A stretch of 64,000 nucleotides of DNA from Candidatus Kuenenia stuttgartensis (GTDB lineage Bacteria; Planctomycetota; Planctomycetia; Pirellulales; UBA1268), in NCBI GenBank assembly GCA_945891385.1, contig CAMDDJ010000003.1, positions 1 through 64,000 on the forward strand. The letters are read 5' to 3'. The position numbers and the translations under genes were made by a program. The notes under the pieces were generated by a model. That model ran no database searches and had not been told where the DNA came from. It saw only the letters and a list, made by a program, of their open reading frames with translations. Positions 46,579 through 59,322 of the stretch are shown here, piece by piece; positions within the stretch are counted from its first letter, which is position 1, and every line of letters begins with the position of its first letter.

Positions 46579-48776
46579 CCGCCCTACCCGCCTTCGAAGG
46601 CCTGCGGTTTTTCACCACGCCCTGGACCATCGTGCTCTCGACCGCGCTCGTGCTGGCCGCGATGGTCGTGGCGGCGATCACCTGGCGGCGGAGCGGCTAC
46701 GCCTGGGGCACGGGAGTCGTGGAACTGCTTCGCGTGCTGATTGCCGGAATCGTGGCCCTGCTGCTCAACCAGCCGGAGTGGGTCGAGGAGTACCGGCCCA
46801 CCGAGAAGCCGGTGGTCGCCATCCTCGTCGATGCCTCGCCCAGCATGGACACCCAGGATGTGGTTCGACCCGGTGGTCCGGTCTCACGGCGGCAGGCGGT
46901 CGCCGAATTGGCGACGAGCGATTTCTGGTGGTCGCTCGCCGAGCGGTTTCGCGTCGTGATCGAGCCCTTCTCGGCGGGAACCGCGGCGGCGGGAACCGAC
47001 CTGGCCCGACCGCTGGCCGCCGCCGCCGATCAGTTCGCGAGCCTCCGGGCAGTGGTGCTTGCGAGCGACGGCGATTGGACCGAAGGCGAACCGCCGCTCG
47101 AGGTGGCGCAGCGGCTCCGGCTTGCCCAGGTGCCCGTGTTCGCAGTGGCGGCAGGCAGTCCCACCAAATTGCCCGACGTCGAACTCGTCAGCCTCGACTG
47201 CCCCACGGTCGGCGTGGTCGGCAAGCCGGTGCGGGTGCCGTTTACGGTCCGTTCCACGCTGCCGACCGAGCGGGTGATTCCCGCCATTCTCACGACTTCG
47301 AGCGGAGAAACGCTCCGCAAGGACATTCGGCTGCCGCCGATGGCCACGGTCAGTGAGTGGCTGTATTGGACGCCCGCGACCGTGGGCGACTACACCCTCA
47401 CGCTCAGCCTCCCCGCGGAAGCCGATGAGCTCCTGCCTGACAACAACGAGCGGACGGCTCCGATCGCCGTTCGGGAGGAGCGGCTCAAGGTGCTCGTGGT
47501 GGAGAGCGTGCCGCGGTGGGAGTATCGCTATCTGCGAAACGCCTTGTCCCGCGATCCGGGGGTCGAGGTCTCCTGCCTGCTCTTCCAGCCGGGCTTGAGC
47601 AAGCGGGGCGGTGGCAACCGCGACTACATCCGGGAGTTTCCCAGCGGCCTCGACGAGCTCTCGCAATTTGACGTCGTGTTCCTCGGCGACGTGGGGCTTT
47701 CGCCTGAACAACTCACCGAAGAGGATTGCCGACTCCTGAAAGGCCTCGTCGAGTATCAGGCCAGCGGCCTCGTGTTCATGCCGGGCTGGCGGGGCGAGCA
47801 GGCTTCGTTCATCGGCTCACCGCTCGAGGATCTCGTGCCGGTGGTGATCGATCCGGCGACGCCCGAGGGAACTGCGACCGACTCTCCCAGACGGCTCGTG
47901 CTCACCGAAGCCGGTCGCAAGAGTCTGCTGACCAAGCTCGCCGACTCTCCGACTGAGAACCTCGCCGTCTGGGAGAGCCTGCCGGGAGGGCAGTGGTACG
48001 GGCCGGTGCTGCGGGCCAAGGCAGGCAGCGAGGTGCTCGCGGTCCACGAGGACGTGGCCAATGAATATGGTCGGATCCCGCTGCTCGTCACCCGCACCTA
48101 CGGTGCCGGCAAGGTGCTCTACATGGCGACCGACGGGGCGTGGCGGTGGCGGAAGGGGGTCGAGGACAAATACCACTACCGCTTCTGGGGCCAGGTGGTC
48201 CGCTGGATGGCCTACCGCCGCAACATGGCCAAGGGTGAGCGGATGAGCCTCTCGTTCTCTCCGGAGCAGCCCGAGCTCGGGCAGGCGATCGTGCTCGATG
48301 CCCGGGTCGCGACCACGTCGGGCGAGCCGCTCATCCGAGGCGAGGTGGCCGCGCGGATCACGGCGCCGAGTGGCCGGGTGGAGACGGTGCGGTTCGCGCC
48401 GCCGGCGGGTGATGGTGAGTGGGGCGTGTTCGCCGGCTCGTTCACCGCAGCCGAGCCGGGTCGGCATGAGATCATGCTCAGTTGTCGGGAAACGTCCGAT
48501 AGCCTCGAGGCCTCGCTCTTCGTCCAGGGCTCGGCGGCCGAGGGAGTCGGCGCCGCCGCCCGGCCCGAGGTGCTTGCCGAGATCGCCCAGGTGACCCGCG
48601 GCCGGGTGCTGCCGCAGGACGACCTCGCCGGTTTGATCGCCACGCTTGCGGAATTGCCGGAATCGCCCCCCGAGGTTCGTCGGCTTCAACTCTGGTGTCA
48701 CCCGGCAGTGGCTGGGCTGCTCGTAGGCCTCCTGGGGTTGTTCTGGGTGGGACGCAAGCGGCAGGGGCTCGTATGA
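46575..48776 (+). CDS. VWA/glutamine-amidotransferase-like membrane protein
   Basis: 733 residues. Two N-terminal helices (IVLSTALVLAAMVVAAITW and LLRVLIAGIVALLL) precede a VWA domain with MIDAS VDASPSMDTQD (85-95). A beta domain follows, then a class I glutamine-amidotransferase-like fold (VLVVESVPRWEYRYLRNAL, FDVVFLGDVGL), without a clear nucleophile Cys. A C-terminal helix (HPAVAGLLVGLLGLFWVG) ends the protein. It is paralogous in layout to the preceding gene and overlaps it by 4 nt. The operon is then interrupted by a 318-nt gap with a repeat. Confidence 0.83.
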   Translation: MTALPAFEGLRFFTTPWTIVLSTALVLAAMVVAAITWRRSGYAWGTGVVELLRVLIAGIVALLLNQPEWVEEYRPTEKPVVAILVDASPSMDTQDVVRPGGPVSRRQAVAELATSDFWWSLAERFRVVIEPFSAGTAAAGTDLARPLAAAADQFASLRAVVLASDGDWTEGEPPLEVAQRLRLAQVPVFAVAAGSPTKLPDVELVSLDCPTVGVVGKPVRVPFTVRSTLPTERVIPAILTTSSGETLRKDIRLPPMATVSEWLYWTPATVGDYTLTLSLPAEADELLPDNNERTAPIAVREERLKVLVVESVPRWEYRYLRNALSRDPGVEVSCLLFQPGLSKRGGGNRDYIREFPSGLDELSQFDVVFLGDVGLSPEQLTEEDCRLLKGLVEYQASGLVFMPGWRGEQASFIGSPLEDLVPVVIDPATPEGTATDSPRRLVLTEAGRKSLLTKLADSPTENLAVWESLPGGQWYGPVLRAKAGSEVLAVHEDVANEYGRIPLLVTRTYGAGKVLYMATDGAWRWRKGVEDKYHYRFWGQVVRWMAYRRNMAKGERMSLSFSPEQPELGQAIVLDARVATTSGEPLIRGEVAARITAPSGRVETVRFAPPAGDGEWGVFAGSFTAAEPGRHEIMLSCRETSDSLEASLFVQGSAAEGVGAAARPEVLAEIAQVTRGRVLPQDDLAGLIATLAELPESPPEVRRLQLWCHPAVAGLLVGLLGLFWVGRKRQGLV

Positions 48777-49094
48777 ACCGAGGCGTGAGCGTCCGACGAG
48801 AAGCCACGGGCAACCCCGGACCGGGAAAAACGGTCTCCGGGACTCGCTTCTTCTTCCTGGAGAGGCGAGAATGAGGCTTTGCGGGCTTCATCCAGCGCGG
48901 GCCGGGGTTGCCCATGCCATCTCGCCGGACGTTCGCTCCGGCCTTCGTGGCCTTTGCTCACTCGGAGGAAACCTCGCTTCGCCTTCCTGGCTCCGCTCGG
49001 TTTCCTACGCCGCTCGATTGGCACGGGCAACCCCTCAAACCAATGAGCGTCCCGGAAGGAACAGACAACGGGATCGGGCCCAGGAGGCGGTGCG
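48777..49094. other. 318-nt gap inside the MoxR/VWA operon
   Basis: It holds no convincing gene. It contains the structured repeat at 48904-49034. A further copy of the terminal motif, GCCACGGGCAACCCCGG at 48803-48819, can pair with 48902-48918 at most positions, so a second stem-loop may precede the first. An in-frame small peptide is readable at 48908-49108 but is not conserved in the second copy. No promoter stands out. Confidence 0.6.
48904..49034 (+). repeat. Dispersed structured repeat, copy 1
   Basis: 131 nt bounded by GGGGTTGCCCATGCCA (48904-48919) and TGGCACGGGCAACCCC (49019-49034), inverted arms with one mismatch. Inside are GCCGGA-CGTTCGC-TCCGGC, GGCC-TTCGT-GGCC, and an AGGAAACC...GGTTTCCT stem. 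The inner 90 nt agree with copy 2 (59131-59221) at about 80 positions by eye. Arm changes compensate: T-A at 48908/49030 here is C-G there, and G-C at 48916/49022 is A-T there. The mobilising enzyme, if any, is not here. Confidence 0.85.
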
Positions 49095-58773: not shown

Positions 58774-59322
58774 GGGGGCTTAGCCGTGCGGTGGCGTTGA
58801 TGTCGATCCGGTTGCCGCCGTTGCGCCTCGAGGGGTTGGCTGTCGAATGACAGTCCCTCCCGGCACGGGGCCCCCCGACTCCGTGCCTGCAGGACCGCAC
58901 CCGAGGCGCAGCGGCAGCATCGGTGGTATCGGACGCTCGAACCCGCAAACTTGGAGCAATCGTCACAGTCGCGCCGGGATCGCGCGAAGCTGGAAAGCTT
59001 GGGGTTTCTGGGGTTGGAGGCAGCGTCACCTGAGGGGTCGGGTTGACCCATACCCCGTCGCCGGATGTTTGCTGCCGGATGGAGGGGCGGAGGCGACGTC
59101 ATCTGGGTGGTCGGGGCTGCCCGTACCCCGTCGCCGGACGTTCGCTCCGGCCCTCCAGGCCGTCGCTCACTCGGAGGAAACCGTCACTTCGCCATCCTGG
59201 CTTCGTTCGGTTTCCTACGCCAGCTCTCGGGATACGGGCAGCCCCGACCTTGTAACCCGGACCAGGTGGCTTCGAATCAGGAGGACTTGTTCACTCAGGC
59301 CCGGCGGGCGCTGCAACAGCGG
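58774..59322. other. 549-nt gap between the TolC gene and oppF
   Basis: No gene is supported. It contains a 7-bp hairpin (58862-58868 with 58881-58887) in the tolC leader, a partial left-end of the dispersed repeat near 59040-59090 (ACCCATACCCCGTCGCCGG), and the complete copy 2 at 59109-59249. No clear promoter was found for tolC. The right-hand part (59250-59322) carries nothing visible beyond the oppF stop region. Confidence 0.6.
59109..59249 (+). repeat. Dispersed structured repeat, copy 2
   Basis: 141 nt bounded by GGTCGGGGCTGCCCGTA (59109-59125) and its perfect reverse complement at 59233-59249; pairing continues with one mismatch inward. The core has GCCGGA...TCCGGC, GGCC-CTCCA-GGCC and AGGAAACCG...CGGTTTCCT. 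Compared with copy 1, the loop between GGCC arms differs while the arms stay the same, and a 1-nt indel breaks any shared reading frame, which argues for structure over coding. It lies between the TolC gene and the opp genes. Confidence 0.85.

Follow-up and report, generated by a model that had tools for sequence, protein, structure and literature searches.

The window, meaning the whole 64,000-nt stretch of DNA analysed here, contains two copies of an element that the initial annotation had described as a recurrent intergenic unit of 131 nt. Copy 1 lies between two plus-strand genes, one for a protein of 733 aa, whose GATase1-like match stays below threshold, and one for a protein of 1134 aa that matches nothing in Pfam, so that the strand on which the element folds is antisense to both. 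Copy 2 lies between two minus-strand genes, encoding an outer-membrane efflux protein and an oligopeptide ABC ATPase, and its folded strand is accordingly sense. The features of the two loci are as follows.

48904..49034, minus strand: element copy 1, with its conserved fold on this strand (match to model R2 at 48900-49038, 145.2 bits)
49019..49034, minus strand: closing stem P1, 5' strand in RNA orientation, pairing with 48904-48919
48904..48919, minus strand: closing stem P1, 3' strand in RNA orientation
48966..49006, minus strand: P2, one arm of the predicted three-way junction, with AGGAA as apical loop (48984-48988)
48931..48961, minus strand: arm P3 of the predicted three-way junction, with the internal-loop design of P2 and apical loop ACGAA at 48944-48948
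59109..59249, minus strand: element copy 2, type II, with a 22-bp closing stem (R2, 135.8 bits)
59036..59073, minus strand: partial unit adjoining copy 2
48780..48818, plus strand: weak remnant of one element end, inverted relative to copy 1 (limits set by eye)

The terminal inverted repeats of about 16 bp that had been claimed for copy 1 are present (16 nt, 94% complementary), and those of copy 2 extend to 22 nt (95% complementary). Copy 2 matches copy 1 at E=1.6e-30, which bears out the reported recurrence at 59109-59249; 111 of the 141 aligned columns agree, and over the inner 90 nt, where agreement at about 80 positions had been estimated by eye, the computed figure is 79. The two paired changes noted between the copies (T-A to C-G and G-C to A-T) are real, and the closing stem holds a third double change (A-T to C-G), the remaining differing pairs being mismatched in one of the copies (A-C versus G-C, C-G versus C-A, plus two pairs at the stem's inner end). 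The partial unit next to copy 2 belongs to a direct repeat of that copy's start, with a spacing of 73 nt and 78% identity over 63 nt. The weak remnant lies 85 nt from copy 1, inside a low-scoring match at 48730-48821 (E=0.0026 with model R1, 0.049 with R2).

The element had also been said to interrupt an otherwise tightly coupled operon. This applies to copy 1, whose neighbouring genes are 318 nt apart here versus approximately 26-146 nt in relatives (stop codon included, start sites estimated from protein alignment), but not to copy 2, which splits no tightly coupled operon since its flanking genes lie 335 and 73 nt away. In all 11 relatives with both genes flanking copy 1 readable, the R1 search finds no element at the junction, its sole match in a relative's locus (17 bits, E=0.08) falling inside the upstream gene of L177. 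Copy 1 is a lineage-specific insertion, although the insertion is not seen at nucleotide resolution because the flanks of the compared relatives are only about 63-87% alike.

The two copies are part of a large dispersed family. A covariance model built from 31 copies yields at least 105 matches at E<=0.01 in the 3.77-Mb draft of the host genome, with 150 of 4176 candidates scored; approximately 10 of these are incomplete, and several of the incomplete ones lie at contig ends. A DNA search in which 40 of 134 candidates were scored recovers at least 47 matches, of which around 40 are nearly complete, with identities of 80-100%, and the end motif alone occurs 148 times versus 0 for the reversed control pattern. 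For further analysis 91 of the 105 matches were cut out with their flanks, and 85 of these score at least 60 bits. The element is not part of any gene, as had been stated: with genes predicted by a purpose-written caller, any overlap with these is limited to 40 nt or less in 90 of the 91 copies, and likewise in all 66 copies examined in relatives. The many intergenic copies with covarying arms that the initial annotation had named as support for such a family are hence at hand.

Several subfamilies can be recognized, between which one arm, P2, swaps whole stems while its pairing is kept (for example GGAAACC/GGTTTCC, TGCAGAC/GTCTGCA, GAGAAC/GTTCTC and GCTGGC/GCCAGC). One young subfamily comprises 8 copies at different loci that are 91-99% identical (median 96%). 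Partial units adjoin at least six type II copies besides copy 2, often approximately 73-78 nt apart. Five copies (L116, L130, L135, L138 and L146) carry an extra hairpin of about 28 nt within an arm, at one place in P3 in three copies and at one place in P2 in two, as if a smaller palindrome nested in the loop. A further copy at a contig end (L120, G000:C80:13915-14055) combines P2 arm halves from two subfamilies that do not pair, pointing to recombination or misassembly. Two other palindromes were encountered alongside the element. A second dispersed palindromic repeat, seen at L155:1860-1990 (G000:C42:22759-22889) and at many other loci of the host genome, starts GGCTCGGGG and ends CCCCGAGCC, shows a tandem spacing of about 100 nt, gives at least 78 matches with 40 of 215 candidates scored, and flanks several element copies; a short palindrome, (T)CAGGCACGCAGCG...CGCGTGCC, is met repeatedly on the downstream side of type II copies such as L022, L028 and L030.

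The initial annotation had pictured three nested hairpins; the predicted structure is instead a closing stem, P1, that leads into a three-way junction whose two arms, P2 and P3, resemble each other. In both, the internal loops are purine-rich (GA/GA and GNA/GNA) and may be read as sheared G-A pairs in tandem; the apical loops are mostly GGA, in place of which the P3 arm of copy 1 has ACGAA. Many internal and apical loop columns are invariant or nearly so. In a minus-strand MAFFT alignment of 56 copies, scored against the RNAalifold consensus of that same alignment, 96.8% of the cells are paired versus 84.5 in shuffled alignments, helix 1, formed by the terminal inverted repeats, reaching 97.2%. 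Double changes occur in 30 of the 41 pairs versus 15.8 in shuffles (sd 1.7), and covariation is scored at 0.342 versus 0.123 for shuffled and 0.034-0.065 for slid controls. Thus the proposal that compensatory changes reflect selection for pairing holds well beyond the two copies from which it was made, and the covariation above shuffles, seen on a defined strand, is what is expected of a structured RNA.

The strand in question is the opposite of the one that had been read. On the reader's strand the exceptions to stem pairing are far more often A-C than G-T, and the RNAalifold energy is -25.6 kcal/mol versus -50.9 for the reverse strand. Folding z-scores from dinucleotide shuffles are -4.3 and -8.25 for copies 1 and 2 on the reader's strand versus -6.9 and -10.4 on the opposite strand, and the latter folds better in 74 of 80 host copies with RNA parameters and in 79 of 80 with DNA parameters. 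Counting events on a tree gives 48 A-C versus 16 G-T on the reader's strand (p=8e-5), of which 39 versus 11 arose from G-C pairs; unpaired sites show no matching bias (30 G-to-A events from 14 root sites, 50 C-to-T events from 26). The events from A-T pairs (9 versus 5) add nothing, as unpaired sites likewise favour T to C (42 from 17) over A to G (6 from 5). Alignment A3 held 80 copies, namely 79 of the 85 at or above 60 bits together with L161 (53 bits), leaving out the five with extra hairpins and the chimeric-looking L120. When P1 is read on the minus strand in another set of 80 host copies (the 85 minus the five with extra hairpins), G-U pairs number 95 and A-C mismatches 13.

The same asymmetry recurs in P1 of the relatives' copies (G-U 38 versus A-C 4, p=6e-8; 64 of 66 copies, two with insertions being dropped), and the minus strand folds better in 63 of these 64 versus 59 of 127 control windows. 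The arms of the relatives' copies give 48:47, a count that is uninformative because the subfamily arms were forced onto the register of copy 1, so that it is P1 on which the asymmetry depends; omitted from this count were one arm pair (40-66 in the fold of copy 1) and two junction pairs, as they are not consensus pairs. Taken together, the wobble pattern shows the minus strand to be the folded one. The conservation of its shape hints that the element is handled as a folded RNA or single-stranded DNA, and the tolerance of G-U makes RNA the likelier of the two. This placement of the selected fold on the minus strand is new; the original observation was right, and its extent is larger than had been supposed.

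The phyletic pattern of the family is narrow. The R2 search, run on 246 genomes of the order with stricter filters and 13 candidates scored per genome, finds the element in 44, every one of which belongs to the 50 genomes sampled from the host's own family (11 of 12 genera), and in none of 196 genomes from other families of the order. Within one genus (g3) covered by this search, G077 is rich in the element and G023, G070, G233 and G247 are free of it. The R1 search finds it in 34 of 60 genomes, namely all 22 of the genus (the host included) and 12 of the 15 from elsewhere in the family, and in none of 23 outside it. The suggestion of a planctomycete-specific family is therefore upheld in a narrower form, a single family of the order within this sample. 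An exact-pattern search of public genomes returned 29 stretches. Two metagenome-assembled genomes under the title Candidatus Kuenenia stuttgartiensis account for 15 of them and three labelled Planctomycetota for 12; of the remaining two, one bears the title Planctomycetia and the other Verrucomicrobiales. The Kuenenia and Verrucomicrobiales titles are taken to be mislabels, given that the coordinates of one or more of the Kuenenia-titled stretches are those of a copy in the same-genus genome G006. The assignment of the window to the planctomycetes is itself based on the titles of these stretches. Collections of phage, plasmid and viral contigs gave no match to the element. Rfam gave no match at the gathering threshold in the window and, at four loci searched to E<=5, none that overlaps the element, and the papers screened by title and the start of the abstract included no description of it.

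Short (<200 bp), non-coding, dispersed, mobile and bounded by terminal inverted repeats, the element has several of the features by which bacterial MITEs and ERIC-like sequences are recognized (as given in the portion of PMC2229807 drawn on here). A target-site duplication, TA or longer, is not among them: across 147 copies there is no general excess of flanking repeats (mean length 3.97 versus 4.12 permuted), and no flanking target motif apart from short fixed words at subfamily ends. Matches of 3-4 nt at a few fixed offsets do exceed expectation (22 versus 7.4, 17 versus 4.7 and 14 versus 3.4), but each is mostly a single word (CGAC, ACGG or CTCG), and they are therefore read as subfamily ends. 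Sequence conservation drops within approximately four bases of the element ends, and in old copies a target duplication could have been lost.

Among 78 copies from relatives, at least two of which look as though they were fetched twice (L060/L087 and L063/L086, with the same scores), five share both site and orientation with a host copy, two of them with the same one, in a comparison with the flanks of the 91 host copies. These shared sites could mean long persistence. When compared with up to 60 host copies, four of the five are closer to a copy elsewhere and one ties, so that re-insertion or gene conversion is indistinguishable from descent, and such orthologous copies were accordingly set aside as a test of selection in place. 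At two further pairs (L211/L107 and L229/L118) a relative's flank matches a host flank with the opposite relative orientation of the element, which hints at insertion hot spots (one flank each).

Relative to the neighbouring genes, the 91 host copies, taken in RNA orientation, are sense to both in 29 cases, antisense to both in 13, between convergent genes in 27 and between divergent genes in nine, with one side unknown in 12 and one copy overlapping a gene; the corresponding figures for the 66 relatives' copies are 20, 21, 16 and two, with one side unknown in seven. In both sets together, convergent sites number 43 versus 11 divergent ones, and divergent, promoter-bearing gaps are avoided by the element. 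The direction of the neighbouring genes leaves the wobble signature of P1 unaltered, its G-U to A-C ratio being 30:5 in sense, 12:3 in antisense, 30:4 in convergent and 7:0 in divergent sites. This equality suggests that what is constrained is the element itself, in its own cycle during mobilisation, more than read-through transcripts.

Given these observations, the reading that we favour, with a probability of roughly 0.6, is that of a non-autonomous mobile palindrome of about 131 nt, present in around 100 copies, similar in kind to ERIC and REP sequences and recognized as a folded single strand. A trans-acting enzyme of the host or of a mobile element would recognize this strand, either as an RNA transcript or as single-stranded DNA, and the same enzyme would copy or insert the element, mostly near the 3' ends of genes and rarely between divergent ones. 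Once inserted, the copies could still have a passive effect by forming very stable hairpins within 3' untranslated RNA. Of the MITE-like and REP-like labels that had been offered, the notion of a mobile palindromic family is retained, but each label is only partly apt, a target-site duplication as in MITEs and, in this genome, a Y1 transposase as in the REP/RAYT systems having been sought and not detected.

It appears unlikely that the element is instead a functional structured RNA, such as a stabiliser in the 3' untranslated region, a terminator-like structure or an RNase III site, selected at each locus with dispersal being secondary. The RNA-type wobble, the conserved purine internal loops and the GGA apical loops are what such an RNA would show, some sites are common to several species, and in the host genome 61 of 83 copies lie 3' of a gene on the same strand (p=2e-5). 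In the relatives, however, this sense bias is weak (38 versus 23, p=0.07) and co-directional sites split 20:21; being strong in the host genome and not clearly replicated, it was rejected as proof of a 3'-UTR function. An intrinsic terminator was likewise rejected, as inspection by eye found no T-run directly past the stem. The equal wobble signature in antisense copies, the lack of the element at the copy 1 site in all 11 relatives, and the affinities of the five shared-site copies to copies elsewhere (with one tie) also speak against selection in place. On the terminal branches of the tree, compensation and the preference for G-U persist alongside more mismatches (compensatory changes 42, G-U 38, A-C 12, mismatches 43), which leaves room for some selection in place and would also fit that alternative.

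The enzyme searches covered the Y1 transposase (PF01797), the reverse transcriptase (PF00078) and DDE_Tnp_1. The Pfam model of the Y1 transposase has no match in the host genome, which is 94% complete; it has matches in 17 of 40 genomes of the family, and the element-rich G012, G017, G020, G026 and G032 are not among these. The reverse transcriptase model likewise has no match in the host genome, and matches six of the 40. Neither domain follows the occurrence of the element across these genomes, and both were rejected as its mobiliser. The host genome has one DDE_Tnp_1 gene, in an IS at L147:1-1615 (G000:C76), whose ends are unrelated to those of the element, and as the parent transposon it is improbable. 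This IS appears to be inserted in the arm hairpin of an element copy, of which only the right half is seen as the contig starts there, and it carries another element copy between the transposase and its right end.

A REP- or REPIN-type element, mobilised by a transposase of the RAYT (Y1 HUH) kind that works on single-stranded DNA in folded form, would account for a palindrome that folds on one strand, is intergenic, gives more than 100 matches and shows no detected target duplication. The likeness to REP, BIME and REPIN sequences extends to the IS apparently lying in a hairpin, as some IS target REPs. We nevertheless consider such an origin decidedly improbable, in view of the distribution of the Y1 transposase described above, of the predicted three-way junction, and of the length of 131 nt, far above the 20-40 bp of the REPs treated in the part of PMC3733652 considered here. 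According to that source, GTAG and CGTC REPs occur in phyla including Planctomycetes; in the element, at 131 nt, the internal GTAG is replaced in several subfamilies, and the conserved CGTC is internal rather than at an end. A MITE moved as double-stranded DNA by a DDE transposase through its terminal inverted repeats, though in keeping with repeats of 16-22 nt, high copy number and lineage-specific insertion, is highly improbable in light of the missing target-site duplication, the unrelated ends of the sole DDE_Tnp_1 gene found, and the covarying internal arms and strand-specific fold, neither of which is required for recognition of such repeats.

In the host genome and in G012, G026 and G032, the Pfam models find neither a Y1 transposase nor a reverse transcriptase. 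A more far-reaching reading, which we regard as speculative and rather unlikely, is that of a dispersed bacterial element moving via an RNA intermediate, or one whose folded strand is recognized by a new class of enzyme. It is suggested by a minus-strand three-way junction with twin GA-rich arms that appears to be selected regardless of local transcription.

These results bear on the old question of how ERIC, YPAL and similar palindromes move; transposase-driven movement of such sequences was, as stated in the consulted portion of PMC2229807, then (2007) without experimental support. The wobble asymmetry reveals which strand is folded and sets it apart from the direction in which the host transcribes, and the 91 host and 66 relatives' copies amount to considerably more than 100 natural variants of this structure. 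The question of the mobiliser thereby becomes a search for a protein that binds the fold, and the covariance model offers an annotation resource for a family without an Rfam match. The two hairpins with GGA loops recall, in our estimation, the TwoAYGGAY motif. The Rfam result is no test of this likeness, because the motif is listed without an Rfam number in the part of PMC2864571 used here, where the structured RNAs include Rhodopirellula-1 and not all motifs have a number, so that the absence of an Rfam match does not prove the element to be missing from earlier lists.

Among known systems, the ERIC or IRU sequences, enterobacterial repeats of 127 bp, resemble the element in size, imperfect palindromy, intergenic location, number of copies and character as small mobile sequences (PMC2229807). 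They differ in having TA termini and target duplications, of which no equivalent duplication was found in the element, and a strand-specific wobble signature is not noted for them in the passages of PMC2229807 that we draw on. The NEMIS/Correia and YPAL sequences, in the account given by the same passages, are likewise small stem-loop repeats proposed to act through transcripts, and YPAL shares with the element the lack of TA ends; both differ in their reported target duplications and in their unrelated hosts. The STAXI motif, as described in the excerpted part of PMC2864571, poses the same question as the element, namely whether the folded molecule is RNA or single-stranded DNA.
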